Source: a virus. Taken from it: a DNA stretch of 21,424 nucleotides. The DNA lies in IMG/VR virus record IMGVR_UViG_3300017750_000144, positions 1 through 21,424 of that record; one strand, written 5' to 3'. Below the pieces are notes generated by a model, which saw only the letters and a list, made by a program, of their open reading frames with translations, was not told where the DNA came from and did no database searches. The translations under genes were made by a program, and so were the position numbers. Below, piece by piece: positions 12,401-21,279 of this stretch (its first letter is position 1; every line of letters begins with the position of its first letter).

Positions 12401-12865
12401 ATGAAAAAACTAATCTTGACTATTATTACTTTAGCAGCGGTGTTTATTGCTGTACCTTTCATATTTAAAAAAGAGCCTGTTTTTACCGGTAGGGAGTATG
12501 ATGGAGAATCTCTAACTGCTAATTTATTCAAAACACCTGTTACATTTACTGACACAGACGGTAATTTAGTTGATGGTTATGCAGTAAGATATTATCCAGG
12601 TACAGAGCAACTATACTCTAAAGCTAGTTTTAAAGATGGAGTTATGCATGGACCGTTTCTTTCTTTCTGGGATAACGGTCAAATCCAAATGACAATGGTT
12701 TGGGATAACGGTACCCGTTATAAGAAAATGCGTTCATGGGATCGAGATGGTAAGCGATTGAAAGGTTCTGGAGATGAGCAAATTGCCCAAATTAGAAGTC
12801 TAGATAAGCAACTAGGAGCTCAAATGGATGAATTGGAAAATATTAAATTAGAGTTTGCTCAGTAA
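12401..12865 (+). CDS. Membrane-anchored MORN-like repeat protein
   Basis: 154 residues. Residues 4-22 (LILTIITLAAVFIAVPFIF) form a single N-terminal hydrophobic segment after MKK, probably an uncleaved signal anchor, so the rest would lie outside the cytoplasmic membrane. The middle carries MORN_2-type repeats: YYPGTEQLYSKASFKDGVMHGPF, here in two parts YYPGTEQLYS and FKDGVMHGPF, then FWDNGQIQMTMVWDNGTRYKKM and WDRDGKRL. Such repeats form beta hairpins in secreted bacterial proteins and in some phage proteins. The C-terminal 40 residues are a helical, probably coiled-coil tail. A host-envelope role is plausible. The stop TAA is directly followed by the GGAACT promoter of the next gene. Confidence 0.8.
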   Translation: MKKLILTIITLAAVFIAVPFIFKKEPVFTGREYDGESLTANLFKTPVTFTDTDGNLVDGYAVRYYPGTEQLYSKASFKDGVMHGPFLSFWDNGQIQMTMVWDNGTRYKKMRSWDRDGKRLKGSGDEQIAQIRSLDKQLGAQMDELENIKLEFAQ

Positions 12866-12881
12866 GGAACTCTGATATAAT
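12866..12881 (+). promoter_or_regulatory. GGAACT-CTGA-TATAAT promoter
   Basis: Begins on the first base after the MORN-like gene stop. Nine bp separate TATAAT from the ATG at 12891, 3 bp more than the usual 6. Confidence 0.75.
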
Positions 12882-12890
12882 TAAGGTATA

Positions 12891-13142
12891 ATGAAGATTG
12901 TATATTGTACCTGCGGCTCTCTGGTTAGACCTGCTCGAGTAGAGGCCGGCTTTAGTAATTGTATTAGATGCGCTAATGAGAACCCGGTGGAGCCTCCGAA
13001 AGGTCGTATGGTTTATACTGGTAAAGTCGGGGCGGAGATTGAAATTATGTCTGCTGAAACCTGGCGAGAAAATAAAGGTTACTTTATACCTAAGGGAGGG
13101 CGTAGCTGTGTTAAGAACTTTAGTAAGAATGTTTGCGCATAA
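12891..13142 (+). CDS. Small zinc-finger protein
   Basis: 83 residues with an N-terminal metal site C6-x-C8 and C24-x2-C27 in the context YCTCGSLVRPARVEAGFSNC, IRC. A Cys-rich start with R-P-A-R and G-F-x-x-C is reminiscent of small TraR/DksA-like or zinc-ribbon proteins. The rest has GRMVYTGKVGAEIEIMS, likely a small beta fold, and two more Cys near the C-terminus (C73, C82). DNA, RNA or RNA polymerase binding are all possible. The gene has its own promoter upstream and is followed with no gap by the next promoter. Confidence 0.75.
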   Translation: MKIVYCTCGSLVRPARVEAGFSNCIRCANENPVEPPKGRMVYTGKVGAEIEIMSAETWRENKGYFIPKGGRSCVKNFSKNVCA

Positions 13143-13158
13143 GGAACTATATTATAAT
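13143..13158 (+). promoter_or_regulatory. GGAACT-ATAT-TATAAT promoter
   Basis: Directly abuts the preceding stop (TAAGGAACT). Five bp between TATAAT and the ATG at 13164. Confidence 0.75.
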
Positions 13159-13163
13159 TAGGT

Positions 13164-13418
13164 ATGGCAGCACAGAAAAAAGTTCAGGCCCGGCGTATGG
13201 CTCAAGGTCATTACATAAAAGATGCGTTCTTCTTTATGCAAGATTTGCAAGAGGCTCTAATGGAGTATGAGGTACAAGAATTTACCCAGACTGATGCTCG
13301 ATATGCTCAGCGTCTTATAGAAGAGCTTGATGAGATGAGACCATTGATTCAGAAGCTGGCTAATAACTTAGAAGCCAACTCACCTGCAGATATTATAACT
13401 AACTGGAAAGATCTTTAG
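13164..13418 (+). CDS. Small helical protein, unknown
   Basis: 84 residues: a basic N-terminus (AAQKKVQARRMAQGHYIKD) followed by long helices, FFFMQDLQEALMEYEVQEF and ARYAQRLIEELDEMRPLIQKL. No catalytic motif. A single-gene cassette between two copies of the repeated promoter; its TAG stop shares its last G with the next GGAACT. Confidence 0.72.
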   Translation: MAAQKKVQARRMAQGHYIKDAFFFMQDLQEALMEYEVQEFTQTDARYAQRLIEELDEMRPLIQKLANNLEANSPADIITNWKDL

Positions 13419-13433
13419 GAACTCCGATATAAT
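13418..13433 (+). promoter_or_regulatory. GGAACT-CCGA-TATAAT promoter
   Basis: Overlaps the preceding TAG stop by one base. Six bp between TATAAT and the ATG at 13440. CCGA spacer shared with copies at 18324 and 20431. Confidence 0.78.
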
Positions 13434-13439
13434 AATATT

Positions 13440-13709
13440 ATGAACCCAACAAGAGAAGATCTAATTGAGCTCGGCTACCTTGAACCTGGTGATACTCACT
13501 GTAAGGTTCCTAAACGTATACGTAAGATTTTTCTTACTGAAAGTGATTTAGAGTATGCTCAACGGCATGGACTTACTCGTCAAGAGATGAAGGATTTTAA
13601 AGAGGAAATGATGATTGAAGATGAGATTATTAGTGATCATCGTATCCTAGCTGCTCAAGAAAAGAAAGATAATTTTAACTCACCACAAGCTCACTATTTT
13701 GCATGGTAA
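13440..13709 (+). CDS. Small hypothetical protein
   Basis: 89 residues. Mostly charged helices: REDLIELGYLEPGD, then KRIRKIFLTESDLEYAQRHG, then LTRQEMKDFKEEMMIEDEII. The LTxxDxxxAxxxGLTxxEM layout resembles small helical DNA- or protein-binding domains in phages, without an assignable family. Its end overlaps the next gene by 7 bp. Confidence 0.7.
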   Translation: MNPTREDLIELGYLEPGDTHCKVPKRIRKIFLTESDLEYAQRHGLTRQEMKDFKEEMMIEDEIISDHRILAAQEKKDNFNSPQAHYFAW

Positions 13710-14053
13710 TTAAATCCTTTAACTTTAAAACTAAAGAACGTGTAGGTGATTGTGCACCTACATATTCAAGGAGTTGGGAGCTTGATCTAACCGATGGAGT
13801 ATATACCCTATCAGTAGATGGGTATGATCCTGAGATATTAGCAGAGAATGATCGTGAGTTATATTACTTTATCTCTAAAGGTAAAAGGAAACATATCAAG
13901 GTTCTTGAGAGCAGAGGCTTTAAGCAATGGATCTATGCTCAATGGCAAAGCGGTGATGTATGGGGCTATGCTCCTTATCTATGCAAGTTCAAGAGAGATA
14001 TTTTAGTGTTCGGTAATGCGCAATGGTCTGAAATGGATGCATTTGGTGACTAA
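13703..14053 (+). CDS. Hypothetical protein
   Basis: 116 residues, start ATG at 13703 overlapping the previous stop (ATGGTAA). Beta-rich, with many Trp and Tyr: SRSWELDLTDGVYTLSVDGYDP, here given as SRSWELDLTDG and YTLSVDGYDP, and FKQWIYAQWQSGDVWGYAPY. No recognised motif. Translationally coupled to the preceding gene, so both use the promoter at 13418. Confidence 0.68.
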   Translation: MVIKSFNFKTKERVGDCAPTYSRSWELDLTDGVYTLSVDGYDPEILAENDRELYYFISKGKRKHIKVLESRGFKQWIYAQWQSGDVWGYAPYLCKFKRDILVFGNAQWSEMDAFGD

Positions 14054-14066
14054 AAACAATAACAAT

Positions 14067-14384
14067 ATGAGTACAAAGTGGCACGGAGGTAAAGGCGATA
14101 AGTCAAGAACCAATAACTATAATAAGTATGCAGATAATTATAACAATATCTTTGGTACTAGAGCAAGAGCTACAGATGATATATGGGGAGAGCCAGGTCA
14201 AGTAGATATTATTGAAGGTGATACAATTTCATATAAGAAGACTAAAGATAACTTTGTTAACGTAGTTGTAGTTGTAGAAGCCCCTGGCAAATACGGCGAA
14301 GCAGGTGGTAATGCAGGTCATCCTTTTAATGTAACTCAAAATATATTTGAAGAAAAATATAAACCTTATTTAAAAATTCTTTAA
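14067..14384 (+). CDS. Small conserved phage protein with GGKG-x-x-x-R start
   Basis: 105 residues from the ATG at 14067; an in-frame ATG at 14016 lies within the previous gene and is less likely. The start MSTKWHGGKGDKSRTNNYNK, continuing YADNYNNIFG, is of a kind I recognise from many uncharacterised small proteins of T4-like and other marine phages (W-x-GGKG-x-x-x-R ... Y-x-x-N-x-x-x-I-F). The C-terminal half (DNFVNVVVVVEAPGKYGEAGGNAGHPFN) contains a hydrophobic strand and a Gly-rich loop. Function unknown. No SD in the preceding AACAATAACAAT. Confidence 0.72.
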   Translation: MSTKWHGGKGDKSRTNNYNKYADNYNNIFGTRARATDDIWGEPGQVDIIEGDTISYKKTKDNFVNVVVVVEAPGKYGEAGGNAGHPFNVTQNIFEEKYKPYLKIL

Positions 14385-14396
14385 TGAAATATTAAT

Positions 14397-14570
14397 ATGG
14401 AAATGATAGCTATAGGATTTATTCTTGCAATTATATTAGTTGCAGCACTACCATATATTTTATGGAAGATTATATCTATACTTCCTAATTTATTATGGAC
14501 ATGTTCTAAAGTAGCAACGTTTATAATTGTATTTGGAGCTATTGTTTTTTGTATTACTAAACTAAACTAA
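14397..14570 (+). CDS. Small two-helix membrane protein (57 aa)
   Basis: The protein has two hydrophobic segments, IAIGFILAIILVAALPYIL (4-22) and VATFIIVFGAIVFCIT (39-54), joined by a short loop with KIISILPNLLW. No charged signal-peptide pattern at the start. Tiny membrane proteins of this sort in T4-like phages act in lysis timing or superinfection immunity, or are unknown; nothing here decides. It follows the previous stop after 12 bp and no promoter box is seen. Confidence 0.6.
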   Translation: MEMIAIGFILAIILVAALPYILWKIISILPNLLWTCSKVATFIIVFGAIVFCITKLN

Positions 14571-14574
14571 TAAA

Positions 14575-14739
14575 ATGGACGAAAATAAAACAACAAACGT
14601 ATCGCTAGGTCGTGATTATTTCTTAAGCGCGTTACCAGATGATACAGATAGAGTACGTGTTGAAGGTACTGATGTAAGCGTAGATAAAACTACACTCAAA
14701 GAGCTTGAAGCTCTCGGATTAATTAACCAACCTAAATAG
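14575..14739 (+). CDS. Small hypothetical protein (54 aa)
   Basis: Start ATG 4 bp after the preceding stop. The sequence reads MDENKTTNVSLGRDYFLSAL, then a strand DTDRVRVEGTDVSVD and a closing helix LKELEALGLINQ. It looks like a compact globular domain with no identifiable motif. The next gene begins one base after the TAG stop. Confidence 0.6.
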   Translation: MDENKTTNVSLGRDYFLSALPDDTDRVRVEGTDVSVDKTTLKELEALGLINQPK

Positions 14740-14740
14740 A

Positions 14741-14992
14741 ATGTATAAACATATTAAAGATATGCTCCAAAGTGGGCAAGTAATTCACATTGAGTTCACT
14801 AAAAAGAATGGTGAAACTCGTAAGATGAACTGTACAACTAATCTAGATCTAATCCCAGAAGATGCACACCCATCAGGCGATCGAATGAGCTACGTAAATG
14901 AAGATGTAGTTAGAGCGTATGATATTGATGTAAAAGGATGGCGCGCTTTTAGAGTAGATTCTGTAAACGTTCTCGAGTCAAAGGAACTCTGA
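14741..14992 (+). CDS. WYL_2/DUF2693-like small beta-barrel protein
   Basis: 83 residues. The pattern HIEFTKKNGETRKMNCTTNL, then IPEDAHP, then RAYDIDVKGWRAFRVDSV matches what I know of the small Sm/SH3-like family called WYL_2 or DUF2693 (F-x-K-K-x-G-x-x-R-x-x-x-C-T ... I-P ... D-x-x-x-x-G-W-R-x-F-R). Its biochemical role is not established; a nucleic acid ligand is usually supposed. The last codons (AAG GAA CTC TGA) overlap the next promoter, so the promoter constrains the C-terminus KEL. Confidence 0.7.
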   Translation: MYKHIKDMLQSGQVIHIEFTKKNGETRKMNCTTNLDLIPEDAHPSGDRMSYVNEDVVRAYDIDVKGWRAFRVDSVNVLESKEL

Positions 14993-14998
14993 TATAAT
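14983..14998 (+). promoter_or_regulatory. GGAACT-CTGA-TATAAT promoter
   Basis: Embedded in the last codons of the previous gene; its CTGA spacer supplies the stop codon. Five bp between TATAAT and the ATG at 15004. Confidence 0.78.
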
Positions 14999-15003
14999 TA
15001 GGT

Positions 15004-15264
15004 ATGCAAAAGAAAGAAGAAATTCCAGAAGACGTTATCAACTACTGTATTGATAATAAAGTAAGTATTGTAGAAGGTCTCCAGGCAATCGCTGAGAGTA
15101 AGATTCAAAGATTGGAAGAAAATATCGCTACTCTTAAAAAGGATGCGCTAGATGATATTTTCTCTGTTAAGAAAGATATCTCTTCAGTAGAGAAGCTTAG
15201 TAAGGAGGACATGGATGATGTTGAGTCCTTCCTCGATTTTCTAGATAAAAACGTTACAGACTAA
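15004..15264 (+). CDS. Helical acidic protein, unknown
   Basis: 86 residues: an EIPEDVINYCIDNKVSIVEG start, then a long coiled-coil-like helix AIAESKIQRLEENIATLKKD and a second helix with acidic end (KEDMDDVESFLDFLDKNV). No enzyme motif. Overlaps the next gene by 1 bp (TAATGA). Confidence 0.72.
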   Translation: MQKKEEIPEDVINYCIDNKVSIVEGLQAIAESKIQRLEENIATLKKDALDDIFSVKKDISSVEKLSKEDMDDVESFLDFLDKNVTD

Positions 15265-15488
15265 TGATCAATCTAATCAAGAAACTATTTAAAAAAAGAA
15301 CTGAGCCTAAGTTTGCGAAATGTCTTAATAACCAAACATGGCTTGAACGACAAGTTGATGATGCTCTTTATAAAAGAGATACATTAAATCAACTTGCTGG
15401 TAATAATTTACCAAATAAAGGGAAAGAAGCTGGCTTTATTTTAAAGCCATCCGATAATTGGTACGATAAATATTATGACAATGAATAA
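15264..15488 (+). CDS. Small hypothetical protein
   Basis: 74 residues. A very basic amphipathic start (MINLIKKLFKKRTEPKFAK) that could contact a membrane or nucleic acid, then NQTWLERQVDDALYKRDTLN and an aromatic end DNWYDKYYDNE. Coupled to the gene before it, and its last 14 bp overlap the start of the EF-hand gene if the first ATG is used there. Confidence 0.68.
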   Translation: MINLIKKLFKKRTEPKFAKCLNNQTWLERQVDDALYKRDTLNQLAGNNLPNKGKEAGFILKPSDNWYDKYYDNE

Positions 15489-15858
15489 AAAAATGACGGC
15501 AATTGTAATTGCTGCACTGACGCTCACTGCTAACGCAAGTGACCATCATGATGAGAAAAAAGGACCTAAAGGAAAACCTGCGAAGGTTGGCGGTAAGCGG
15601 AAGCTTCCTCCTGGACTGGCCAAGTTCGATAAGAACAAAGATGGAAAGCTATGCGAAGTTGAGCGTAAGGCAGCCGCAGCTGCTAGAAAGAAAATGCTTA
15701 TCAAGAAATTTGATAAAGATGGTGATGGTAAGCTGAATTCGGAAGAGCGTAAGGCAGCGATTGCAGCTACTGAAGCTATGAAAAAGCGTAAAGGTAAGGG
15801 CAAGCTTCCTAAAAGAGCAAAAGGTAAAGTTAAACCTGAGCAAAAGAAAACCAAATAA
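15475..15858 (+). CDS. Secreted EF-hand calcium-binding protein
   Basis: 127 residues from the ATG at 15475; an ATG two codons later (15481) is equally possible. Residues 3-21 form a classical signal peptide: NKKM, then the hydrophobic TAIVIAALTLT and an A-N-A cleavage site before S22. The mature protein is very Lys-rich and has two canonical 12-residue EF loops: DKNKDGKLCEVE (52-63, ligands D52, N54, D56, E63) and DKDGDGKLNSEE (80-91, ligands D80, D82, D84, E91), each followed by an E-R-K-A-A helix. LPPGLAKFDKNKDGK resembles secreted EF-hand proteins common in Verrucomicrobia and Planctomycetes, so host origin is possible. The role in a phage is unknown; it would act outside the cytoplasm. 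The stop overlaps the next ATG. Confidence 0.85.
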   Translation: MTMNKKMTAIVIAALTLTANASDHHDEKKGPKGKPAKVGGKRKLPPGLAKFDKNKDGKLCEVERKAAAAARKKMLIKKFDKDGDGKLNSEERKAAIAATEAMKKRKGKGKLPKRAKGKVKPEQKKTK

Positions 15859-16118
15859 TGAACAATGACCTGAGTATGTCCGAAAACTACTCTTTTTTTA
15901 ATAAAGTGAAAGGGTTCATTCAGGTCCACATAATAGCAAAAGACAGAGGTTTTAAATATGAAAAGGTAGCTAACACTCCTGATTTTAATGATGAAGGTGC
16001 CGCTCTAACATATTGGGAAGCTAATAAAGACTCCATTAATGATGCTAATTTTTATGATGACCATCTCGTTATTATTAGAAAAGAAATCCATAATGTATGC
16101 ACGACAAAGTTAAATTAG
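15858..16118 (+). CDS. Hypothetical protein
   Basis: 86 residues, start ATG overlapping the EF-hand gene's stop (TAATG). Strand HIIAKDRGFKYEKVANTPDF, then a helix ALTYWEANKDSINDANF and a final strand HLVIIRKEIHN. No family recognised. Its last 22 bp overlap the next gene in another frame. Confidence 0.7.
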   Translation: MNNDLSMSENYSFFNKVKGFIQVHIIAKDRGFKYEKVANTPDFNDEGAALTYWEANKDSINDANFYDDHLVIIRKEIHNVCTTKLN

Positions 16119-16264
16119 ATAAACAAGATAGGGTCGTATATACTAAAACTGTTGAAGAGGGATTTATTTGCGAGCACTGGTATGAATATACCGACACAGG
16201 CGAACAAATTCTTGTAAAATTGTTTGAAGAATCAATCCCTACTGATTACACTGAGCATATTTAA
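16097..16264 (+). CDS. Small hypothetical protein (55 aa)
   Basis: Starts with MHDKVKLDKQDRVVYTKTVE and continues EGFICEHWYEYTDTGEQILV, ending EESIPTDYTEHI. The W-Y-E-Y-T-D-x-x-G-E pattern suggests a small beta sheet. It overlaps the previous gene by 22 bp, and its stop overlaps the end of the convergent minus-strand gene by 3 bp. Confidence 0.58.
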   Translation: MHDKVKLDKQDRVVYTKTVEEGFICEHWYEYTDTGEQILVKLFEESIPTDYTEHI

Positions 16265-16746
16265 AATAAATATTTGAGAATGAGCTCTTCTTCTGTAAGA
16301 ATTTTTTCACCTTCATCTTCTTGTACTGAATCAAAACCTTCCTCATATTCTTCATAGTAAGAGTAAATATCATCTGCATCTGCTTCATAGCTAAATGAAG
16401 ATGATCCCTTAGACGTCTGCACAACTTCGTATTTATCTTTGATACCTGCAACTATTAATTGTTTAAGCAATTTAGGACCAGTCTCTTTTTCAGACCGGGT
16501 CATAAAGTCTTTAACTTGGTTACTGGTAAATTTACCTTTCAGGGTTAAAATAGGATCATCGTAAAGACCCCAAACATGAATAGCTAAATATTGTCTGGTA
16601 ATATCTGCGCAATCTCGTATAACATAATATGCAGATTTCTTTTTTACCTCTATGCCAGTATCAGGCTTTTTGTGAGCTCTATCAGCAGGACCGTAAAGTT
16701 TGGCTATTTGTTCCTTACTATTGTCTAAGATTACTTCCTCGAACAT
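16261..16746 (-). CDS. Hypothetical late gene on the opposite strand
   Basis: 161 residues, the only minus-strand gene in the right-hand 14 kb. The N-terminal 100 residues look globular: FEEVILDNSKEQIAKLYGPA, a central strand-rich SAYYVIRDCADITRQYLAIHVWG, and a helix NQVKDFMTRSEKETGPKLLK. The C-terminal 45 residues are strongly acidic with Tyr (DADDIYSYYEEYEEGFDSVQ). A late box CTAAATA lies 5 bp from the ATG, unlike the early-type promoters around it, so it is probably expressed with virion genes. No family recognised. It converges with the 16097 gene, stops overlapping by 3 bp. Confidence 0.75.
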   Translation of the reverse strand: MFEEVILDNSKEQIAKLYGPADRAHKKPDTGIEVKKKSAYYVIRDCADITRQYLAIHVWGLYDDPILTLKGKFTSNQVKDFMTRSEKETGPKLLKQLIVAGIKDKYEVVQTSKGSSSFSYEADADDIYSYYEEYEEGFDSVQEDEGEKILTEEELILKYLF

Positions 16747-16751
16747 ACATA

Positions 16752-16758
16752 TATTTAG
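16752..16758 (-). promoter_or_regulatory. Late promoter CTAAATA for the 16261-16746 gene
   Basis: On the minus strand, CTAAATA is followed by 5 bp and the ATG at 16746. It stands back to back with the plus-strand early-type promoter at 16790. Confidence 0.6.
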
Positions 16759-16789
16759 TCTCTCTGCTAAAATTGGTAGATATCTAAAA

Positions 16790-16805
16790 GGAACTTCGAT
16801 ATAAT
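16790..16805 (+). promoter_or_regulatory. GGAACT-TCGA-TATAAT promoter
   Basis: In the 66-bp gap between divergent genes, so not forced by any coding sequence. TATAAT ends 7 bp before the ATG at 16813 (4 bp before a TTG at 16810). It supports the ATG at 16813. Confidence 0.78.
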
Positions 16806-16812
16806 TAGGTTG

Positions 16813-17265
16813 ATGATATTATTAGAACCGTCTCCTGGCATCAAAAAGCATACGAAGATTGACTTTAATCTTCTCAGTCAGCTGCTTACTACATTACTTG
16901 AATCAAACCATAAACGAGATATCAATATTGTAGCGAAAGTTCATAAGAGTAAAATTGCAGGTACTTCGCTATGTACTCATGTAGATGGTTGTAGATTTCT
17001 GATTAACTTAGACGTCTCAAATATTAAGAGACGTTACATATTCGGTTCTATTTTGCATGAGCTTCGTCATTGCGTACAGAAGAATCTATTTGGTTATTGG
17101 CCTGATACTCACGCTATGAAGACCTGGAAAGATTACTGGTATTCTAAAGAAGAGATCGATGCTCGTAAGATGGAGAAACTTACGACTCAGATGATTAAAG
17201 CATACGACTCGATGATTAACATGAGTATACAGTTTAAGAAGTATAATCTAAACAAGATTGGATAA
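16813..17265 (+). CDS. Putative zinc metallopeptidase (HExxH)
   Basis: 150 residues. The motif SILHELRHCVQ contains H82-E83-L-R-H86, the HExxH zinc and catalytic site, on a predicted helix after the strand CRFLINLDV. About 27 residues later comes WYSKEEIDARKMEKL with E113/E114 followed by D-A-R, the typical place for the third zinc ligand of a gluzincin (as in ImmA/IrrE-type or SprT-like small peptidases). The N-terminal 50 residues are helical and Lys-rich. No signal peptide, so it would act in the host cytoplasm. The target is unknown; cleavage of a host regulator or of a phage structural protein is possible. Single-gene cassette: promoter before, next promoter directly after its TAA. Confidence 0.72.
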   Translation: MILLEPSPGIKKHTKIDFNLLSQLLTTLLESNHKRDINIVAKVHKSKIAGTSLCTHVDGCRFLINLDVSNIKRRYIFGSILHELRHCVQKNLFGYWPDTHAMKTWKDYWYSKEEIDARKMEKLTTQMIKAYDSMINMSIQFKKYNLNKIG

Positions 17266-17281
17266 GGAACTTCAGTATAAT
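17266..17281 (+). promoter_or_regulatory. GGAACT-TCAG-TATAAT promoter
   Basis: Begins on the base after the metallopeptidase stop. Six bp between TATAAT and the ATG at 17288, which supports that 32-codon gene as real. Confidence 0.75.
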
Positions 17282-17287
17282 AAGAGT

Positions 17288-17386
17288 ATGAAACAAGAAG
17301 ATAGACAGTTTTTCGAAAATGTAGTTTTTGGGTGTGTAATTATCCTCATATTAGTTCTTGTAACTATATCAATTTTACCAAAATAA
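17288..17386 (+). CDS. One-helix membrane peptide (32 aa)
   Basis: MKQEDRQFFEN followed by VVFGCVIILILVLVTISILPK: a short polar N-terminus and one 18-20 residue transmembrane helix ending in a positive residue. Too short for standard gene finders. Support comes from the promoter placed exactly 6 bp before its ATG and from the next gene starting 4 bp after its stop. It could be a membrane-localised regulator of lysis or host functions; unknown. Confidence 0.65.
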   Translation: MKQEDRQFFENVVFGCVIILILVLVTISILPK

Positions 17387-17390
17387 ACAA

Positions 17391-17570
17391 ATGCCCGAAC
17401 CAGCAGAATCAAAAAGTAATAAGCACTTCCGTATCTCGTTAGTTAAATCATTCTTACGAATAGGTGGATGTGTTGCAGCATTAACTCCATTAAGAACTAA
17501 CGAATCAATCATAGCTCTAGCTGTATCATTCCTCGCAGCTGAGATCTTAGGAATTTTTGAGGAACTCTAA
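17391..17570 (+). CDS. Small membrane protein (59 aa)
   Basis: The polar N-terminus MPEPAESKSNKHFRISLVKS is followed by FLRIGGCVAALTPL and a hydrophobic helix SIIALAVSFLAAEILGIFEEL. The S-L-V-K-S-x-x-R-I-G-G-C-x-A-A pattern is one I associate with small conserved membrane proteins of large phages. Function unknown. Its terminal codons GAG GAA CTC TAA overlap the next promoter, giving the ending EEL. Confidence 0.65.
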   Translation: MPEPAESKSNKHFRISLVKSFLRIGGCVAALTPLRTNESIIALAVSFLAAEILGIFEEL

Positions 17571-17576
17571 TATAAT
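17561..17576 (+). promoter_or_regulatory. GGAACT-CTAA-TATAAT promoter
   Basis: The spacer CTAA contains the stop codon of the preceding gene. Six bp between TATAAT and the ATG at 17583. Confidence 0.78.
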
Positions 17577-17582
17577 AACAAT

Positions 17583-17786
17583 ATGAAGTACGACATTGTA
17601 TTCAAGACAAAAGAAGCATTTACAGCAGCTAAAACCCTACTCACTCATCATTATGCTTGTCGATTTAACGACCTTGATGATTATAGAATTGAATTCTATC
17701 TAGAGGGTAGACGTGAGACAGCTAAAAAAATGCTACAAGATGTAAATGCTGTTGAAGAAGGTAACATGGAGTTTGTAAATGCTTAA
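17583..17786 (+). CDS. Small hypothetical protein
   Basis: 67 residues with alternating strand, helix, strand, helix: MKYDIVFKTKEAFTAAKTLL, then DDYRIEFYLEGRRETAKKML. This beta-alpha-beta-beta-alpha order suggests a small ferredoxin-like fold. No motif that points to function. Cassette bounded by promoter copies on both sides. Confidence 0.72.
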   Translation: MKYDIVFKTKEAFTAAKTLLTHHYACRFNDLDDYRIEFYLEGRRETAKKMLQDVNAVEEGNMEFVNA

Positions 17787-17802
17787 GGAACCCTAGTATA
17801 AT
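17787..17802 (+). promoter_or_regulatory. GGAACC-CTAG-TATAAT promoter
   Basis: The only copy with C at the sixth box position. Directly abuts the preceding TAA. Six bp between TATAAT and the ATG at 17809. Confidence 0.72.
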
Positions 17803-17808
17803 AATAGT

Positions 17809-18219
17809 ATGAACAATACCATTAAACATCTAGACAACGGGGACTTCGAAGTGATAAAAAACACTCCATCTGCTGAAACTCTTGAATCAGGGAAGCCTAG
17901 ATTCAATAAAGATGATAAGGCGGCAAAGAAGTTATTTACAGATGTTCAGCTAGCCTACGAAACTCTTATCTTAGCTAAGGTGGAAGCTGATCCTGCATTT
18001 GGATTATCTACTCCTCAAGCAATTCAGAAAGCTGATGCCGCTTATGAAGAGTATGATGAGTTAGTTGATATTGTAGTTAAGGCTACAGGCGGAAATGCTC
18101 CAGCCTTTTTTACTGACCCACAAACAGTTGATCTATTTGAGATGGCAGGTACTGATTGTCGAGGCATGACATATAATGAGATGGCTGAACTTGAAGGCTC
18201 TATTGCTTTTGGAAATTAA
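17809..18219 (+). CDS. Hypothetical protein with DLF-x-x-AG-x-D C-terminal motif
   Basis: 136 residues. The N-terminal 30 are polar, then two helices KKLFTDVQLAYETLILAKVE and AIQKADAAYEEYDELVDIVV. The C-terminal part reads FFTDPQTVDLFEMAGTDCRG, then MTYNEMAELEG. The ending resembles that of the protein encoded at 19566 (DPIAWDLFCELAGGDPG ... LNYLEMVKF), so the two may be distant paralogues. Function unknown. Confidence 0.72.
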   Translation: MNNTIKHLDNGDFEVIKNTPSAETLESGKPRFNKDDKAAKKLFTDVQLAYETLILAKVEADPAFGLSTPQAIQKADAAYEEYDELVDIVVKATGGNAPAFFTDPQTVDLFEMAGTDCRGMTYNEMAELEGSIAFGN

Positions 18220-18225
18220 ATTATT

Positions 18226-18294
18226 ATGAAACTAAATATACTACTACCGTTAATAATTATCACTATTGTGTTGATCTTAACCGGATGCACGTGA
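18226..18294 (+). CDS. Tiny lipoprotein-like peptide (22 aa)
   Basis: MKLNILLPLIIITIVLILTGCT then TGA. The peptide is essentially a signal sequence ending in a lipobox, L-T-G-C, which would leave a lipidated Cys-Thr after cleavage. It begins 6 bp after the preceding stop. It may be the remnant of a longer lipoprotein cut by a stop (TGA after ACG), a very small o-spanin-like peptide or a non-functional leftover. No frame resumes clearly downstream. No promoter box of its own. Confidence 0.5.
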   Translation: MKLNILLPLIIITIVLILTGCT

Positions 18295-18323
18295 AGTACA
18301 TGCTAGATTCCCAGTTGGGATAA

Positions 18324-18339
18324 GGAACTCCGATATAAT
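18324..18339 (+). promoter_or_regulatory. GGAACT-CCGA-TATAAT promoter
   Basis: Lies in a 51-bp noncoding gap. Six bp between TATAAT and the ATG at 18346. Confidence 0.8.
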
Positions 18340-18345
18340 TAAAGT

Positions 18346-18531
18346 ATGAAAAGAGACAAGTACTTAGTAATCGTAAGTTTTAAGGGACGAGTTGAGCGTA
18401 TTGTTGTAGAAGCTACTTCAAGACCAGATGCTGAAAATGTTGTTTATGAGAAGAAAAAGCATTTGTTTGACCATGATGTTATTCACGGTACAAATACTAT
18501 TAACATTATGTCTTCACGTAGAATGTCTTAA
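18346..18531 (+). CDS. Small hypothetical protein
   Basis: 61 residues: KYLVIVSFKGRVERIVVEA is a beta hairpin, then a helix SRPDAENVVYEKKKHLF and a final strand with NTINIMSSRRMS. Beta-beta-alpha-beta plan, no recognised family. Independent cassette with its own promoter. Confidence 0.7.
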   Translation: MKRDKYLVIVSFKGRVERIVVEATSRPDAENVVYEKKKHLFDHDVIHGTNTINIMSSRRMS

Positions 18532-18547
18532 TCGCTTGATACTTTAA

Positions 18548-18563
18548 GGAACTTAACTATAAT
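18548..18563 (+). promoter_or_regulatory. GGAACT-TAAC-TATAAT promoter
   Basis: Lies 16 bp after the preceding stop. Six bp between TATAAT and the ATG at 18570. It would also transcribe the tmRNA-like RNA at 18676. Confidence 0.78.
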
Positions 18564-18569
18564 ATAATT

Positions 18570-18665
18570 ATGAACATTGAAAAACTAAAAGAAACGTTAA
18601 TTGTGTTATGGATTATATCAGTATCTCTTTACATAGGATTAGATTTACTTCAAAAATTTAACTAG
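18570..18665 (+). CDS. One-helix membrane peptide (31 aa)
   Basis: MNIEKLKETLIVLWIISVSL then YIGLDLLQKFN. One hydrophobic helix of about 18 residues with a charged N-terminus. Support comes from the promoter placed exactly 6 bp upstream. The stop is only 10 bp before the tmRNA-like RNA, so the two should share a transcript. Function unknown. Confidence 0.62.
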   Translation: MNIEKLKETLIVLWIISVSLYIGLDLLQKFN

Positions 18666-18675
18666 AATTAACAAC

Positions 18676-18739
18676 GGGGGTGACGTTGGTTTCGACGTAA
18701 TAAAAATTACGGATGAGGGTTCAAATCCCTCCACCTCCA
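18676..18739 (+). ncRNA. Minimal tmRNA: tRNA-like domain only, no mRNA-like part
   Basis: 64 nt that reproduce the tRNA-like domain of tmRNA. Acceptor stem: GGGGGTG (18676-18682) pairs with CACCTCC (18732-18738) in 7 bp including G3-U70, the alanine identity pair of tmRNA, with discriminator A at 18739. The D-loop region ACGTTGGTTTCGACG (18683-18697) has the same length as in E. coli tmRNA and shares its GG-x-TTCGACG block. T-arm: GAGGG, TTCAAAT, CCCTC (18715-18731). Instead of helix P2 leading to tag and pseudoknots, CGTAAT and ATTACG (18696-18711) close a perfect 6-bp stem with an AAAA loop, which shares C18696-G18697 with the D-region block. CCA is not encoded. It follows a 31-codon gene by 10 bp and probably shares its promoter. 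It would need 5' cutting by RNase P and CCA addition. It may be alanylated and bound by SmpB, but it carries no tag. The identity of the fold is seen; the function is inference. Confidence 0.85.
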
Positions 18740-18742
18740 TTA

Positions 18743-18749
18743 ATAAATA
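18743..18749 (+). promoter_or_regulatory. Late promoter ATAAATA
   Basis: TTAATAAATA starts 1 bp after the discriminator base of the tmRNA-like RNA and lies 5 bp before the ATG at 18755. It fixes that start; a longer frame from 18713 runs through the RNA gene. Confidence 0.68.
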
Positions 18750-18754
18750 CTCAT

Positions 18755-18907
18755 ATGGCATTTGAACATTTACATTTAGATGATTTAGGTAGAATCATTT
18801 ATAAATTCGCTAGATCGGTTGGATATACCGAAGAATGGTGGTTTTCATACGATAGCCGGAGCAACAAGACAATCGATAAGTATATTAAAGAGAGAAAGCC
18901 ATTTTAA
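18755..18907 (+). CDS. Small hypothetical protein (50 aa)
   Basis: Starts at the ATG 5 bp after the late box. Sequence plan: MAFEHLHLDDLGRIIYKFAR, then SVGYTEEWWFSYDSRSNK and a helix TIDKYIKERKPF. Aromatic-rich, compact, no motif of known function. A late-type gene inside an otherwise early-type region. The next gene starts with GTG directly after its stop. Confidence 0.65.
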   Translation: MAFEHLHLDDLGRIIYKFARSVGYTEEWWFSYDSRSNKTIDKYIKERKPF

Positions 18908-19078
18908 GTGAAAAAAATATTAAAAGCTTTTAAAAATAAAAAGAATCGTAAAATAAATTACGATCAAGAGCTGGACAATTTTAGGCAAATGGTCATCGAT
19001 TTACACCTTAAAATAACAAGATTAGAAAAAGAAAATCGTCGTTTGAAACGAGTTATCAAAAATCTCTCTGAAACATAA
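18908..19078 (+). CDS. Small basic coiled-coil protein (56 aa), GTG start
   Basis: GTG immediately follows the preceding TAA. MKKILKAFKNKKNRKINYDQ is strongly basic, followed by a leucine-heptad helix DNFRQMVIDLHLKITRLEKE and NRRLKRVIKNL. Probably a dimeric coiled coil with a nucleic-acid-binding or membrane-surface N-terminus. No other start gives a better reading frame. Its TAA is directly followed by the next promoter. Confidence 0.6.
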   Translation: MKKILKAFKNKKNRKINYDQELDNFRQMVIDLHLKITRLEKENRRLKRVIKNLSET

Positions 19079-19094
19079 GGAACTTCATTATAAT
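19079..19094 (+). promoter_or_regulatory. GGAACT-TCAT-TATAAT promoter
   Basis: Directly abuts the preceding TAA. Six bp between TATAAT and the ATG at 19101. Spacer identical to that of the copy at 6764. Confidence 0.78.
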
Positions 19095-19100
19095 AAACAT

Positions 19101-19385
19101 ATGAACAAAGACATTTACAGAGTTCAAAAAAGCCCTAGTTATTCACTGTATACGAAAAATGGTTCTAATCATAGAATGCATGGTCCTGCGTTAACTATCG
19201 GTAAAAATGAGTATTTTTATATTAACGGCAAGAGGTTAACTCTCTCAGGCCATGAGGACTATGTTAGGTCTTATCTTATTCATGAAGAAGGTTATAGGTT
19301 AGAGAAAAAATTCTTTGAAAAGGCATTAGAGTCTTCGGATGGTATTTTTATTCATGATTTAGAATTAGCTGAAAATGCCAGTTGA
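19101..19385 (+). CDS. Hypothetical protein with R-x-HGPA motif
   Basis: 94 residues. The segment NGSNHRMHGPALTIGKNEYF, followed by YINGKRLTLSGHEDY, follows the pattern H-R-x-x-GPA-x-x-x-x-x-x-x-Y-Y-x-N-G-K that I know from many uncharacterised phage and bacterial proteins, related in style to MORN repeats. The C-terminus is helical and acidic. Its last 11 bp overlap the next gene. Function unknown. Confidence 0.72.
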   Translation: MNKDIYRVQKSPSYSLYTKNGSNHRMHGPALTIGKNEYFYINGKRLTLSGHEDYVRSYLIHEEGYRLEKKFFEKALESSDGIFIHDLELAENAS

Positions 19386-19560
19386 AGACCCGCATTGGTA
19401 TATAGAGATCATGCATTTGCATGAAGATCTAATTACAGAGAGTAAACACTTAGAAGGTCCTTTTATAAATCAAGATGATGCAGAATATCGTAAAGAACAA
19501 ATTCTTACTAAACACAATAATATACGTGATCAGTTAACAATTAATCTCATAATGTTGTAA
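19375..19560 (+). CDS. Small hypothetical protein
   Basis: 61 residues: PHWYIEIMHLHEDLITESKH, then LEGPFINQDDAEYRKEQILT and a helix. W-Y-I-E ... G-P-F-x-x-x-x-D-A-E-x-x-x-E-x-I resembles small phage proteins in which a strand is followed by a SPOR-like DAE helix. Overlaps the previous gene by 11 bp and so depends on its transcript. Confidence 0.66.
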   Translation: MPVEDPHWYIEIMHLHEDLITESKHLEGPFINQDDAEYRKEQILTKHNNIRDQLTINLIML

Positions 19561-19565
19561 GTACT

Positions 19566-19874
19566 ATGCAAAAATATAAAAAGACGAGCAAAGTTAGTTG
19601 GGTAAATAAATCAGAGCGGGTTGCAGAGATAGCCAAACTAGCAGAGTTAATTAAAGAAGGGGAAGAAGAACATCTAGAGCATTACAATGACTTGGTACTT
19701 AGTTATGCTAAAGATACTAACATGCAAGCTTCGGCCTCTGAGACTGATCCTATTGCTTGGGATTTATTTTGTGAGTTGGCCGGTGGCGATCCTGGTAAGA
19801 TTGTTTATGCTGGAGGTAGGAGAGGGTTAAACTATCTAGAAATGGTTAAATTTAATCGAGGCTACTGGCGGTAA
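19566..19874 (+). CDS. Hypothetical protein, possible paralogue of the 17809 product
   Basis: 102 residues. A basic N-terminus (MQKYKKTSKVSWVNKSERVA), a helix AELIKEGEEEHLEHYNDLVL, then SETDPIAWDLFCELAGGDPG and GRRGLNYLEMVKFNRGYWR. DP-x-x-x-DLF-x-x-AG-x-D and the closing Y-x-E-M match the 17809 protein's end, with an extra loop of about 8 residues. The similarity is short and could be convergence. Function unknown. Confidence 0.7.
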   Translation: MQKYKKTSKVSWVNKSERVAEIAKLAELIKEGEEEHLEHYNDLVLSYAKDTNMQASASETDPIAWDLFCELAGGDPGKIVYAGGRRGLNYLEMVKFNRGYWR

Positions 19875-19893
19875 CTAATTTAAACTAATTAAA

Positions 19894-19977
19894 ATGGATC
19901 CTATTCCTACTATTACTCTAGCCGTTGTAATTATTGAGCTTGTTATATTGGTATTCCTCTTTAGATCTAATAAATAG
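19894..19977 (+). CDS. One-helix membrane peptide (27 aa)
   Basis: MDPIPTITLAVVIIELVILV then FLFRSNK: one transmembrane helix with a positive end. No promoter box precedes it, and its end (TAATAAATAG) contains the next late promoter, so it could be chance. The hydrophobic pattern and its position in a tight operon favour a real gene only modestly. Confidence 0.45.
   Translation: MDPIPTITLAVVIIELVILVFLFRSNK
19970..19976 (+). promoter_or_regulatory. Late promoter ATAAATA
   Basis: Overlaps the last codons and stop of the 27-codon gene. Five bp before the ATG at 19982, which it supports over an upstream in-frame start at 19934. Confidence 0.66.
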
Positions 19978-19981
19978 TTCT

Positions 19982-20218
19982 ATGAAGACCTTACTTATAT
20001 TGCTTGCTTGTTGTCTTATTAGCTGCGAAGGAGGTTATAGCTCGTATACGTACCAATCAGTACCGACTACTACTGTACGTACTTACAGAACCTATACACC
20101 AGCATATTATTATGCTCCTAGGAGAGTATATTACCCACCACCTGTTGTCAGATATCAATACAGAACACCTAGATTACATAGTGTTGAAACAAGAAATTAT
20201 AAGAAAAAGTGTCCATAA
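19982..20218 (+). CDS. Small Tyr/Pro-rich lipoprotein
   Basis: 78 residues from the ATG at 19982. MKTLLILLACCLISCEGG is a lipoprotein signal with lipobox L-I-S-C (Cys15). The mature part is low complexity, rich in Tyr, Pro, Thr and Arg: TYQSVPTTTVRTYRTYTPAY then YYAPRRVYYPPPVVRYQYR. It would be anchored to a membrane and exposed in the periplasm or outside. Small phage lipoproteins can be o-spanins or superinfection-exclusion factors; no i-spanin partner is visible. Late promoter upstream suggests expression late in infection. Overlaps the next gene by 10 bp. Confidence 0.72.
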   Translation: MKTLLILLACCLISCEGGYSSYTYQSVPTTTVRTYRTYTPAYYYAPRRVYYPPPVVRYQYRTPRLHSVETRNYKKKCP

Positions 20219-20430
20219 AAAAGGAATACTCAGTTGCAGGTGAAAACAATGATGTAATTATTACATTCGTGGACAAAAATGATGCTATTGATTATGCTTT
20301 TGAATATTTTACATCTATTCACGATAATCGCAGTTTGAACCAGGTAAACGTTAAAGATATGGATGATAATATAATTTTTACCAGTTTCCGCATGCCGTCT
20401 ACTTATTACATTTCTGGTCCGATGACATAA
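20209..20430 (+). CDS. Small hypothetical protein, GTG start
   Basis: 73 residues from GTG at 20209; no ATG lies near the beginning of this frame. NNDVIITFVDKNDAIDYAFE shows a strand then helix, followed by LNQVNVKDMDDNIIFTSFRM. Similar in plan to the 18346 product (strand, then D-A helix). Overlaps the lipoprotein gene by 10 bp. Its TAA is directly followed by the next promoter. Confidence 0.62.
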   Translation: MSIKKEYSVAGENNDVIITFVDKNDAIDYAFEYFTSIHDNRSLNQVNVKDMDDNIIFTSFRMPSTYYISGPMT

Positions 20431-20446
20431 GGAACTCCGATATAAT
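20431..20446 (+). promoter_or_regulatory. GGAACT-CCGA-TATAAT promoter
   Basis: Directly abuts the preceding TAA. Six bp between TATAAT and the ATG at 20453. Confidence 0.8.
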
Positions 20447-20452
20447 AAGAGT

Positions 20453-20650
20453 ATGAAAGAGAGAGTTGAGAGTTTAATTGAGTCAGGAGAGCATGTGTTC
20501 TTAGATATCTGCCCTAGGCGTGATGGTAAGATGTGGTCTGAAGAAGGAGTCATCAAGAGGCTCGATGCTAATGGTTGGTTTCAGATTGAGTTTATGGGCT
20601 CTACTAACGGGTGGCACGTTAATCAAATCGTAAATATTAAGACAGATTAA
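20453..20650 (+). CDS. Small beta-rich (SH3-like) hypothetical protein
   Basis: 65 residues: a short helix RVESLIESGEHVFLDI, then GVIKRLDANGWFQIEFMGST and NGWHVNQIVNIKTD. Alternating strands with W/F and G-W turns look like a small SH3- or Tudor-like barrel. No family assigned. It is the last clear gene before the 358-bp structured noncoding stretch. Confidence 0.7.
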   Translation: MKERVESLIESGEHVFLDICPRRDGKMWSEEGVIKRLDANGWFQIEFMGSTNGWHVNQIVNIKTD

Positions 20651-20774
20651 AAGTTTTCACCTAATGATGGTGCGTCAAGTGAGTATAAACACGGTTAAGC
20701 GAATAGAATAAGACGTTAAATAATGAACTATCGTGGGAGTAAGGGTGCCCTCAGAGAAAGACCCTAATCTTTAA
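20651..20774 (+). other. Noncoding stretch with hairpins, upstream half
   Basis: No credible gene on either strand. Visible pairings are CACC-TAATGAT-GGTG (20660-20674), GCGTC with GACGT further on (one G-U pair), and AGGGT with ACCCT around 20742-20765. GTGGGAGTAA at 20733-20742 recurs at 20978-20987. It could be a structured RNA transcribed from the 20431 promoter as a long 3' extension, or a decayed gene. I do not recognise a riboswitch or ribozyme family in it. Confidence 0.4.
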
Positions 20775-20790
20775 GGAACTATAGTATAAT
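20775..20790 (+). promoter_or_regulatory. GGAACT-ATAG-TATAAT promoter for an RNA
   Basis: A perfect copy of the element, but downstream lies the tRNA-like RNA rather than a long gene. The expected start (about 20797) is 9 nt before the acceptor stem at 20806. This copy argues that the element is a promoter and not a ribosome-binding signal. Confidence 0.75.
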
Positions 20791-20805
20791 ATAGAAACAA
20801 AATAT

Positions 20806-20914
20806 GGCCCGGTCATCTAACTGGGAAGAACCACCCGGTAGCAATGCTAGCAAGGCTACAACAAGGCGACGGCTGAGTATGGGAGGTAATGCAGGTTCAA
20901 TACCTGCTCGGGCC
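20806..20914 (+). ncRNA. tRNA-like structured RNA with enlarged anticodon region
   Basis: The ends fold like a tRNA. GGCCCGG (20806-20812) pairs with TCGGGCC (20908-20914) in 7 bp with one G-U. The T-arm is GCAGG, TTCAATA, CCTGC (20891-20907). After the acceptor come T8, a three-pair D-stem TCT/AGA and a D-loop AACTGGGA containing GG. The next stem, CCACCC (20831-20836) with GGGAGG (20881-20886), has one A-A mismatch. It closes on 44 nt instead of a 7-nt anticodon loop, and these contain GTAGC/GCTAC (20838-20842, 20855-20859). No U33 or plausible anticodon results, so a translating tRNA is unlikely. CCCGGT/ACTGGG (20808-20825) forms a competing hairpin. It has its own promoter. A 39-codon frame from ATG 20804 runs across it. 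Possible readings: tRNA-derived regulatory RNA, decayed tRNA with an insertion, or unknown phage RNA. Confidence 0.6.
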
Positions 20915-20987
20915 TGCTCCTAGCAATTAACGAGGCGTCAAAATCTTCACGCCTACAACCCTTAGGGGAGAGGCTAGGTGGGAGTAA
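20915..20987 (+). other. Structured 3' flank of the tRNA-like RNA
   Basis: CCTAGC (20919-20924) pairs with GCTAGG (20973-20978) and encloses a 6-bp hairpin AGGCGT/ACGCCT (20933-20954) and a small CCC-TTA-GGG hairpin (20959-20967), a plausible three-way junction. It ends in GTGGGAGTAA, the repeat of 20733-20742, just before the next promoter. No T-tract follows, so it is not an ordinary terminator. Possibly part of the same RNA. Confidence 0.45.
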
Positions 20988-21003
20988 AGAACTACGGTAT
21001 AAT
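20988..21003 (+). promoter_or_regulatory. AGAACT-ACGG-TATAAT promoter (variant)
   Basis: First G of the box is A here. Four bp between box and TATAAT and 5 bp from TATAAT to the ATG at 21009. Confidence 0.7.
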
Positions 21004-21008
21004 AAGGT

Positions 21009-21278
21009 ATGAAAGAGAGTAAGTATGTTGTTGTGGCTTATACGAAGACAAAGACTAATGTACTGAAAGCTCTCAACCTCTGCATTCATGAGGTAAAGGA
21101 TGAAGTACAGAACGTATGGGTAGAGAAGGTAGTACCAGTCAATAGAGAGCGTAAGAATGAGATGGTTAATGGATGGACACCTGGAACAGAAGAGTTTGAT
21201 AGTGCATGGCGAGATACAGACCCAAGCGATAGGCCGATAAAATGCATTGTACATACAGTAAAAGGAACTCGAATATAA
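21009..21278 (+). CDS. Hypothetical protein
   Basis: 89 residues: ESKYVVVAYTKTKTNVLKAL starts with a strand then a helix; VWVEKVVPVNRERKNEMVNG and GTEEFDSAWRDTDPSDRPIK follow, then a closing strand CIVHTVKGTRI. No recognised family. The last codons (AAA GGA ACT CGA ATA TAA) lie inside the next promoter, so the ending KGTRI is set by that element. Confidence 0.7.
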   Translation: MKESKYVVVAYTKTKTNVLKALNLCIHEVKDEVQNVWVEKVVPVNRERKNEMVNGWTPGTEEFDSAWRDTDPSDRPIKCIVHTVKGTRI

Positions 21279-21279
21279 T
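21264..21279 (+). promoter_or_regulatory. GGAACT-CGAA-TATAAT promoter
   Basis: Completely within the end of the preceding gene: the TATAAT supplies the stop codon TAA. Six bp to the ATG at 21286. Confidence 0.78.

Follow-up and report, generated by a model that had tools for sequence, protein, structure and literature searches.

What is the 64-nt element at positions 18676–18739 (+ strand) of the virus record IMGVR_UViG_3300017750_000144, and is it maintained by phages or left over from a larger gene? The window, i.e. the whole stretch that was analysed, comprises positions 1 to 21,424 of this record. The element has the features of the tRNA-like domain (TLD) of transfer-messenger RNA (tmRNA) and is referred to here as a mini-tmRNA. 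Judged by sequence comparison, phage mini-tmRNAs are a widespread, conserved gene family and not a lone deletion.

A tRNA-like domain without a tag region

The stretch from 18676 to 18739, corresponding to G1 to A73, is a complete tmRNA TLD. The Rfam tmRNA model RF00023 matched 18676–18742 (+) with 65.6 bits (E=8.5e-24), exceeding the gathering threshold of 47, and the match spanned the model from end to end (positions 1–374) with 312 model positions deleted. The acceptor stem is formed by GGGGGUG (18676–18682, with G3 at 18678) and CACCUCC (18732–18738, with U70 at 18736), with pairing at seven of seven positions, and is followed by A73 at 18739. The D-region ACGUUGGU (18683–18697) contains the tmRNA signature UUCGACG (18691–18697), which is common to the family, and the T-arm GAGGG-UUCAAAU-CCCUC (18715–18731) was read from the sequence and falls within the RF00023 match. 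Only a 16-nt stem-loop lies between the two TLD halves, a shortened helix P2 of 6 bp (CGUAAU-AAAA-AUUACG, 18696–18711) that replaces the coding and pseudoknot region; the RNA has no resume codon, tag, stop codon or pseudoknots PK1–PK4, in line with the 312 missing RF00023 positions. CCA is not encoded after A73, where TTA is found instead. An earlier sequence-only reading of the window had recognized the TLD hallmarks (acceptor stem with G3-U70, D-region and T-arm) and the 6-bp stem with its AAAA loop in place of the coding and pseudoknot domain; both descriptions are borne out by the Rfam score and the absent model positions.

ARAGORN reported neither a tRNA nor a tmRNA in the window, which fits the dependence of this program on a tag. 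An ordinary tRNA gene was rejected, as the RNA lacks an anticodon stem-loop and ARAGORN finds no tRNA. A phage attachment-site (attP) copy of a host tmRNA was ruled out by the presence of both TLD halves, and no integrase was found among the window proteins searched. The mini-tmRNA strand was more stable than 200 of 200 shuffled sequences (z=−3.3). The minimum free energy structure (−24.6 kcal/mol) forms via an alternative D-region hairpin and is better by 1.6 kcal/mol than the tmRNA-like fold with P2 (−23.0 kcal/mol). P2 is thus not decided by single-sequence folding, and the case for it rests on comparative data.

Distribution and size classes of mini-tmRNAs

The window RNA recurs in other contigs, being identical in L367 and near-identical in L064 and L038 (L numbers denote sequence records). 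IMG/VR was searched with a pattern consisting of UUCGACG, a gap of 8–38 and a T-arm, leaving the acceptor unconstrained, and with a second pattern that added an NTCCA tail, which fixes U70 and A73 and leaves G3 free. These searches list approximately 120 stretches each and totals derived from them are lower bounds. After filtering for paired stems, there were at least 91 distinct mini-tmRNAs in IMG/VR, with 54 representatives below 80 % identity. Complete counts were obtained for two sub-patterns, with 16 stretches for a short gap and 19 for GGTTCAA. The majority had been detected with the NTCCA pattern as well, which suggests an estimate of approximately 150 matching contigs overall.

Lengths to A73 fell into two classes, 60–67 and 73–82 nt, with a single exception of 105 nt. 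Across the entire collection, a pattern with a gap of 39–69 detected 13 stretches, and five of these were mini-tmRNAs. The tight size classes and the small number of larger gaps indicate a size-constrained class and not a smear of deletions. RNAs of the long class usually carry an inner hairpin, for example CCGCAUGCGG or CCCGAAAGGG, after an A-rich strand. This hairpin was found in 41 of 47 long-class RNAs, as compared to a proportion of 0.50 in shuffled sequences with a permissive detector, and is therefore common but not universal.

At least six real mini-tmRNAs were also present in the genome contigs collection (L281, L301, L309, L315, L322 and L335). L281 and the viral record L150 are one and the same contig of 130,604 bp, which recurs in the Prochlorococcus single-cell assembly AG-409-P03. 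In L322 and L335, genes for terminase or head protease were located near the RNA, and in L309 a gene for a phage-type glycosyltransferase. Most other matches listed for this collection were tails of Nocardioides host tmRNAs with a chance TTCGACG. Two further matches (L191, and L259 from a Prevotella metagenome-assembled genome) fitted the loose pattern with a UUCGACG stretch and were excluded due to A3-U70 and the lack of GG and CGGA; this tRNA-like element is not a tmRNA.

Conservation of alanine identity and helix P2

Pair statistics were derived with an anchored script for the 54 representatives; a plain MAFFT alignment of 40 mini-tmRNAs had misaligned acceptor stems and was not used. Acceptor pairs 4–7 exhibited three to five pair types each, while pair 3 was G-U in all representatives (54 of 54). 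G3-U70 was likewise present in 25 of 25 distinct RNAs found with the acceptor-unconstrained pattern. A73 was present in all 54 representatives, though this position is fixed by the second pattern. P2 pairs 3–7, which were not used for selecting sequences, were complementary in 40–49 of the 54 representatives each, with five or six pair types per position and shuffle maxima of 32–41. The strongest signals were for pair 3 (49 of 54 paired versus a shuffle maximum of 35) and pair 4 (48 of 54 versus 33), and the signal vanished when the partner strand was slid by one or two bases. Compensatory changes in the acceptor stem and covariation in P2 had been proposed as a check by the sequence-only reading and are both observed. 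The combination of an invariant G3-U70 with covariation in P2 indicates, on these comparative grounds, that the alanine identity and P2 of mini-tmRNAs are under selection.

Gain and loss of the mini-tmRNA gene

Relatives of the window phage were retrieved through a neighbouring 136-aa protein, independently of the RNA, and all three contained a mini-tmRNA (L343, which is the same contig as L038, L344 and L345). RF00023 scored 63.4 bits in L345, where protein identity is 41 % and the acceptor changes are paired, and 49.6 bits in L344. Independent decay of a deleted tmRNA in each relative, raised by the sequence-only reading as a counter-explanation, is not the general picture, since three of three syntenic relatives keep the RNA.

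Presence was more variable elsewhere. The mini-tmRNA was detected in 35 of 61 members of a terminase–portal lineage fetched by the portal protein and in 14 of 22 members of a second lineage, in which it lies between the head protease and the major head protein genes. G3-U70 was kept in all distinct RNAs of both lineages (23 and five, respectively), including that of L398, in which the acceptor was otherwise rebuilt to GGGCCGU/ACGGUCC. Comparison of an empty site in L414, TGCCAATAA-CGACACGCC, with the filled site in L415, TGCCAGTA-[G1 to C72]-A-CGACACGCC, indicates that the inserted unit equals the mature RNA without CCA. By these genome comparisons, the mini-tmRNA behaves as a present-or-absent accessory gene outside the syntenic relatives of the window. 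The neighbouring genes vary and include portal, terminase, head protein and helicase genes, tRNAs and small early ORFs (open reading frames). A conserved family with this distribution suggests repeated gain and loss of the mini-tmRNA by phages.

Two observations concern the flanks of these genes. A conserved tiny ORF, MENENVNGYAVPQDPMDLLQCDSCQ (PQDPMD...CxSCQ), is located just 5′ of the portal gene in the terminase–portal lineage (L374–L437) with or without a mini-tmRNA. TA precedes the RNA in 21 of 112 distinct mini-tmRNAs, and in L004, L386, L415, L168, L146 and L125 the upstream ORF ends in a TAG stop codon whose last base doubles as G1. With such an overlap, maturation by RNase P would turn the upstream message into a non-stop mRNA, as is described for Carsonella smpB.

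Carriers among isolate phages

At least six isolate phages carry unannotated mini-tmRNAs above the Rfam threshold. The gene lies within tRNA arrays in the Streptomyces phages LuckySocke, BRock, pSt2308 and Shaeky, precedes the major capsid gene in Pontimonas phage phiPsal1 and adjoins tRNA genes in Stenotrophomonas phage Jojan60. Mini-tmRNAs of GiJojo and Alone3 were matched by BLAST only. When the window region was compared with isolate phages by similarity search, the only matches were fragments of tRNA-gene T-arms (Erwinia phages and phiA050). Together with the silence of ARAGORN on the window copy, the absence of tmRNA annotation for the copies in isolate records points to an annotation blind spot.

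Other tmRNA-related elements were encountered in isolate phages. Vibrio phage D239 has, next to its tRNA genes, a degenerate TLD-like RNA that lacks UUCGACG (L361:371-441, 35.2 bits). Unannotated full permuted tmRNAs were present in Pseudomonas phages SM1 and PA_L9, Xanthomonas phage Rb1, Synechococcus phage S-CRM01 and Ruegeria phage RpAliso, and a normal tmRNA in Gordonia phage GMA2 (L359); the records with these tmRNAs are L351, L352, L353, L362, L364 and L359. GMA2 also contains a Pistol ribozyme (L359:742-798; 56.8 bits, above threshold) just after tRNA-Trp and downstream of its tmRNA.

Genomic setting in the window

The window encodes a T4-type terminase, a tail tube and a head closure protein. 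A co-directional 31-aa ORF (18571–18666, +), read from the sequence, ends 9 nt before G1 and is kept in L064 and L038 but missing in L344. Downstream, a small ORF of 50 aa from an ATG at 18755 (18755–18907, +; its frame in the ORF list opens at 18713) is kept in relatives. A promoter-like motif, AAGGAACT-N4-TATAAT, occurs in 16 copies in the window as compared to 0.6 expected, the nearest one 5′ of the mini-tmRNA being at 18546–18563 (+), and lies directly 5′ of the mini-tmRNA in L345. Copies of this motif are spread over 12864–21279 (11 exact, 16 allowing up to two mismatches) a few bases 5′ of start codons, and their spacing does not fit a sigma-70 −35/−10 pair.

A candidate antagonist of trans-translation

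The base pair G3-U70 together with A73 is the recognition signal of alanyl-tRNA synthetase (AlaRS), and the TLD of tmRNA binds SmpB and EF-Tu. Processing, charging, SmpB binding and a benefit to the phage are what we infer for the mini-tmRNA. We favour, with moderate confidence, the interpretation that it serves as an alanylated, SmpB-binding decoy antagonizing host trans-translation. The sequence-only reading had already put forward this logic, with a possibly alanylated RNA that could bind SmpB, offers no tag frame and might block trans-translation. The RNA would be excised from a longer transcript by tRNA-processing enzymes and CCA would then be added, after which host AlaRS would charge it with alanine via G3-U70 and host SmpB and EF-Tu would bind it. 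This decoy would be a competitor of host tmRNA, both for SmpB and for ribosomes that have stalled on broken mRNA, and, being template-free, would reduce host trans-translation with its tagging, proteolysis and ribosome recycling. SmpB was not found in 20 + 8 phage records, many of which are fragments, and no second tmRNA, full or permuted, scored above the cut-off in the records tested. The lack of a detected phage SmpB and the varied neighbours indicate that the mini-tmRNA must rely on proteins of the host and does not require a particular phage partner. The decoy reading is further supported by a precedent, a similar RNA that strongly inhibits Escherichia coli tmRNA whether chargeable or not (Mao 2009, via PMC4131195).

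Several points weigh against a decoy. For the window phage, a host with SmpB is assumed; 26 of the 61 terminase–portal relatives had no mini-tmRNA by this detector; and the RNA of L344, which still reaches its 49.6 bits, has a C1.C72 mismatch and UUUGACG and is possibly decaying. Since inhibition by the similar RNA did not depend on whether it was chargeable, titration needs no G3-U70. The invariance of this pair exceeds the needs of titration and suggests ribosome entry.

This strictness opens the way to an alternative, template-free rescue, in which the alanylated mini-tmRNA with SmpB would accept the nascent chain and extend it by a single alanine, or by several in successive rounds, before another factor such as ArfA-RF2 or ArfB frees the ribosome, allowing phage proteins to escape proteolytic tagging. 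Such rescue would give charging a role beyond SmpB titration, as the invariant G3-U70 and A73 argue, and tag-less mitochondrial tmRNAs persist with SmpB and are thought to be active (PMC11915505). However, the RNA has no stop codon and cannot itself release the ribosome, no phage RF-1/ArfB domain was found in 20 records, many of them fragments, and the one relative tested inhibited tmRNA (PMC4131195). We regard template-free rescue as unlikely, and its extension to the entire class, with alanine added without a reading frame and rescue diverted from proteolytic tagging, as decidedly unlikely.

An RNA without an anticodon arm that keeps alanine identity could instead act as a decoy, either for a tRNA-attacking host defence or for AlaRS or EF-Tu, making SmpB irrelevant. 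The tmRNA-specific D-region and the P2-CGGA elements would then be superfluous, rendering this explanation quite improbable. A further alternative is an intercistronic processing signal, whereby the tRNA-like fold lets RNase P and the tRNA 3′-end nuclease cut a polycistronic mRNA. Two lineages are consistent with this role, one in which the RNA separates the terminase and portal genes and one in which it separates the genes for head protease and major head protein, and where G1 overlaps an upstream stop codon maturation would cut the upstream mRNA. Any tRNA fold would suffice for this purpose, however, leaving the invariant G3-U70, UUCGACG, CGGA and P2 unexplained, and the contexts are diverse (tRNA arrays, small early ORFs, helicase and structural genes); we consider it very improbable. 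Finally, mini-tmRNAs could be inert remnants of phage tmRNAs or of attachment sites for integration into host tmRNA. L344 has its mismatch and altered D-loop, and attP-like tmRNA 3′ ends lie beside an integrase in phages such as Validus, Milly and Yeezy. Those attP-like copies lack the 5′ half, however, whereas mini-tmRNAs retain the 5′ and 3′ halves alike, show compensatory pair changes, fall into fixed size classes and do not vary in their identity elements across a broad range. Only one integrase occurs among 58 upstream neighbours, and covariation contradicts this reading, which we consider very improbable.

As regards the proposed decoy, the breadth of the family and its invariant alanine identity suggest that phages have recurrently adopted interference with trans-translation as a strategy. 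Mini-tmRNAs are candidate natural tmRNA inhibitors, and the role of G3-U70 and charging is addressable in the cultivated Streptomyces and Stenotrophomonas phages.

Relationship to known tmRNA systems

tmRNA genes occur in approximately 2.3 % of isolate phage genomes (PMC9004378). Full and permuted phage tmRNAs, such as those of Bacillus phage G, Bxz1 and Melnitz (PMC4131195, PMC9004378), share the TLD but have a tag frame. attP copies of host tmRNA also place a tmRNA tail in a phage genome, but consist of the 3′ part only and lie beside an integrase. The sequence-only reading had held that no natural phage tmRNA reduced to the TLD was described; this was incorrect, as the tmRNA of mycobacteriophage DS6A (tmID 11587) was classified as ‘TLD only’ (Hudson, Lau and Williams 2014, PMC4131195). 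The window RNA, phage-encoded and containing little beyond the TLD, fits that definition (PMC4131195). DS6A is likewise a phage with a TLD-only RNA, but it is a single phage with a Mycobacterium host, and the comparison of the two RNAs is by description. PMC11915505 restates the DS6A case in a passage with DS6A as the sole phage named; neither this passage nor PMC4131195 reports family breadth, an inner-hairpin class or conservation statistics. No description of a wider phage mini-tmRNA family was found in the literature searched, in which subscription papers and preprints were partly covered. PMC11915505 adds tag-less organellar tmRNAs: those of jakobid mitochondria and the ~65-bp tmRNAs of Mallomonadaceae plastids also retain the tRNA-like part without a tag frame. 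These organellar RNAs are thought, according to that text, to aid their own ribosomes, whereas the likely target of phage mini-tmRNAs is the host system. The kind of RNA is thus known, and what is new is its breadth, the conservation of its charging identity, the inner-hairpin architecture, the accessory-gene behaviour and the availability of tractable isolates.
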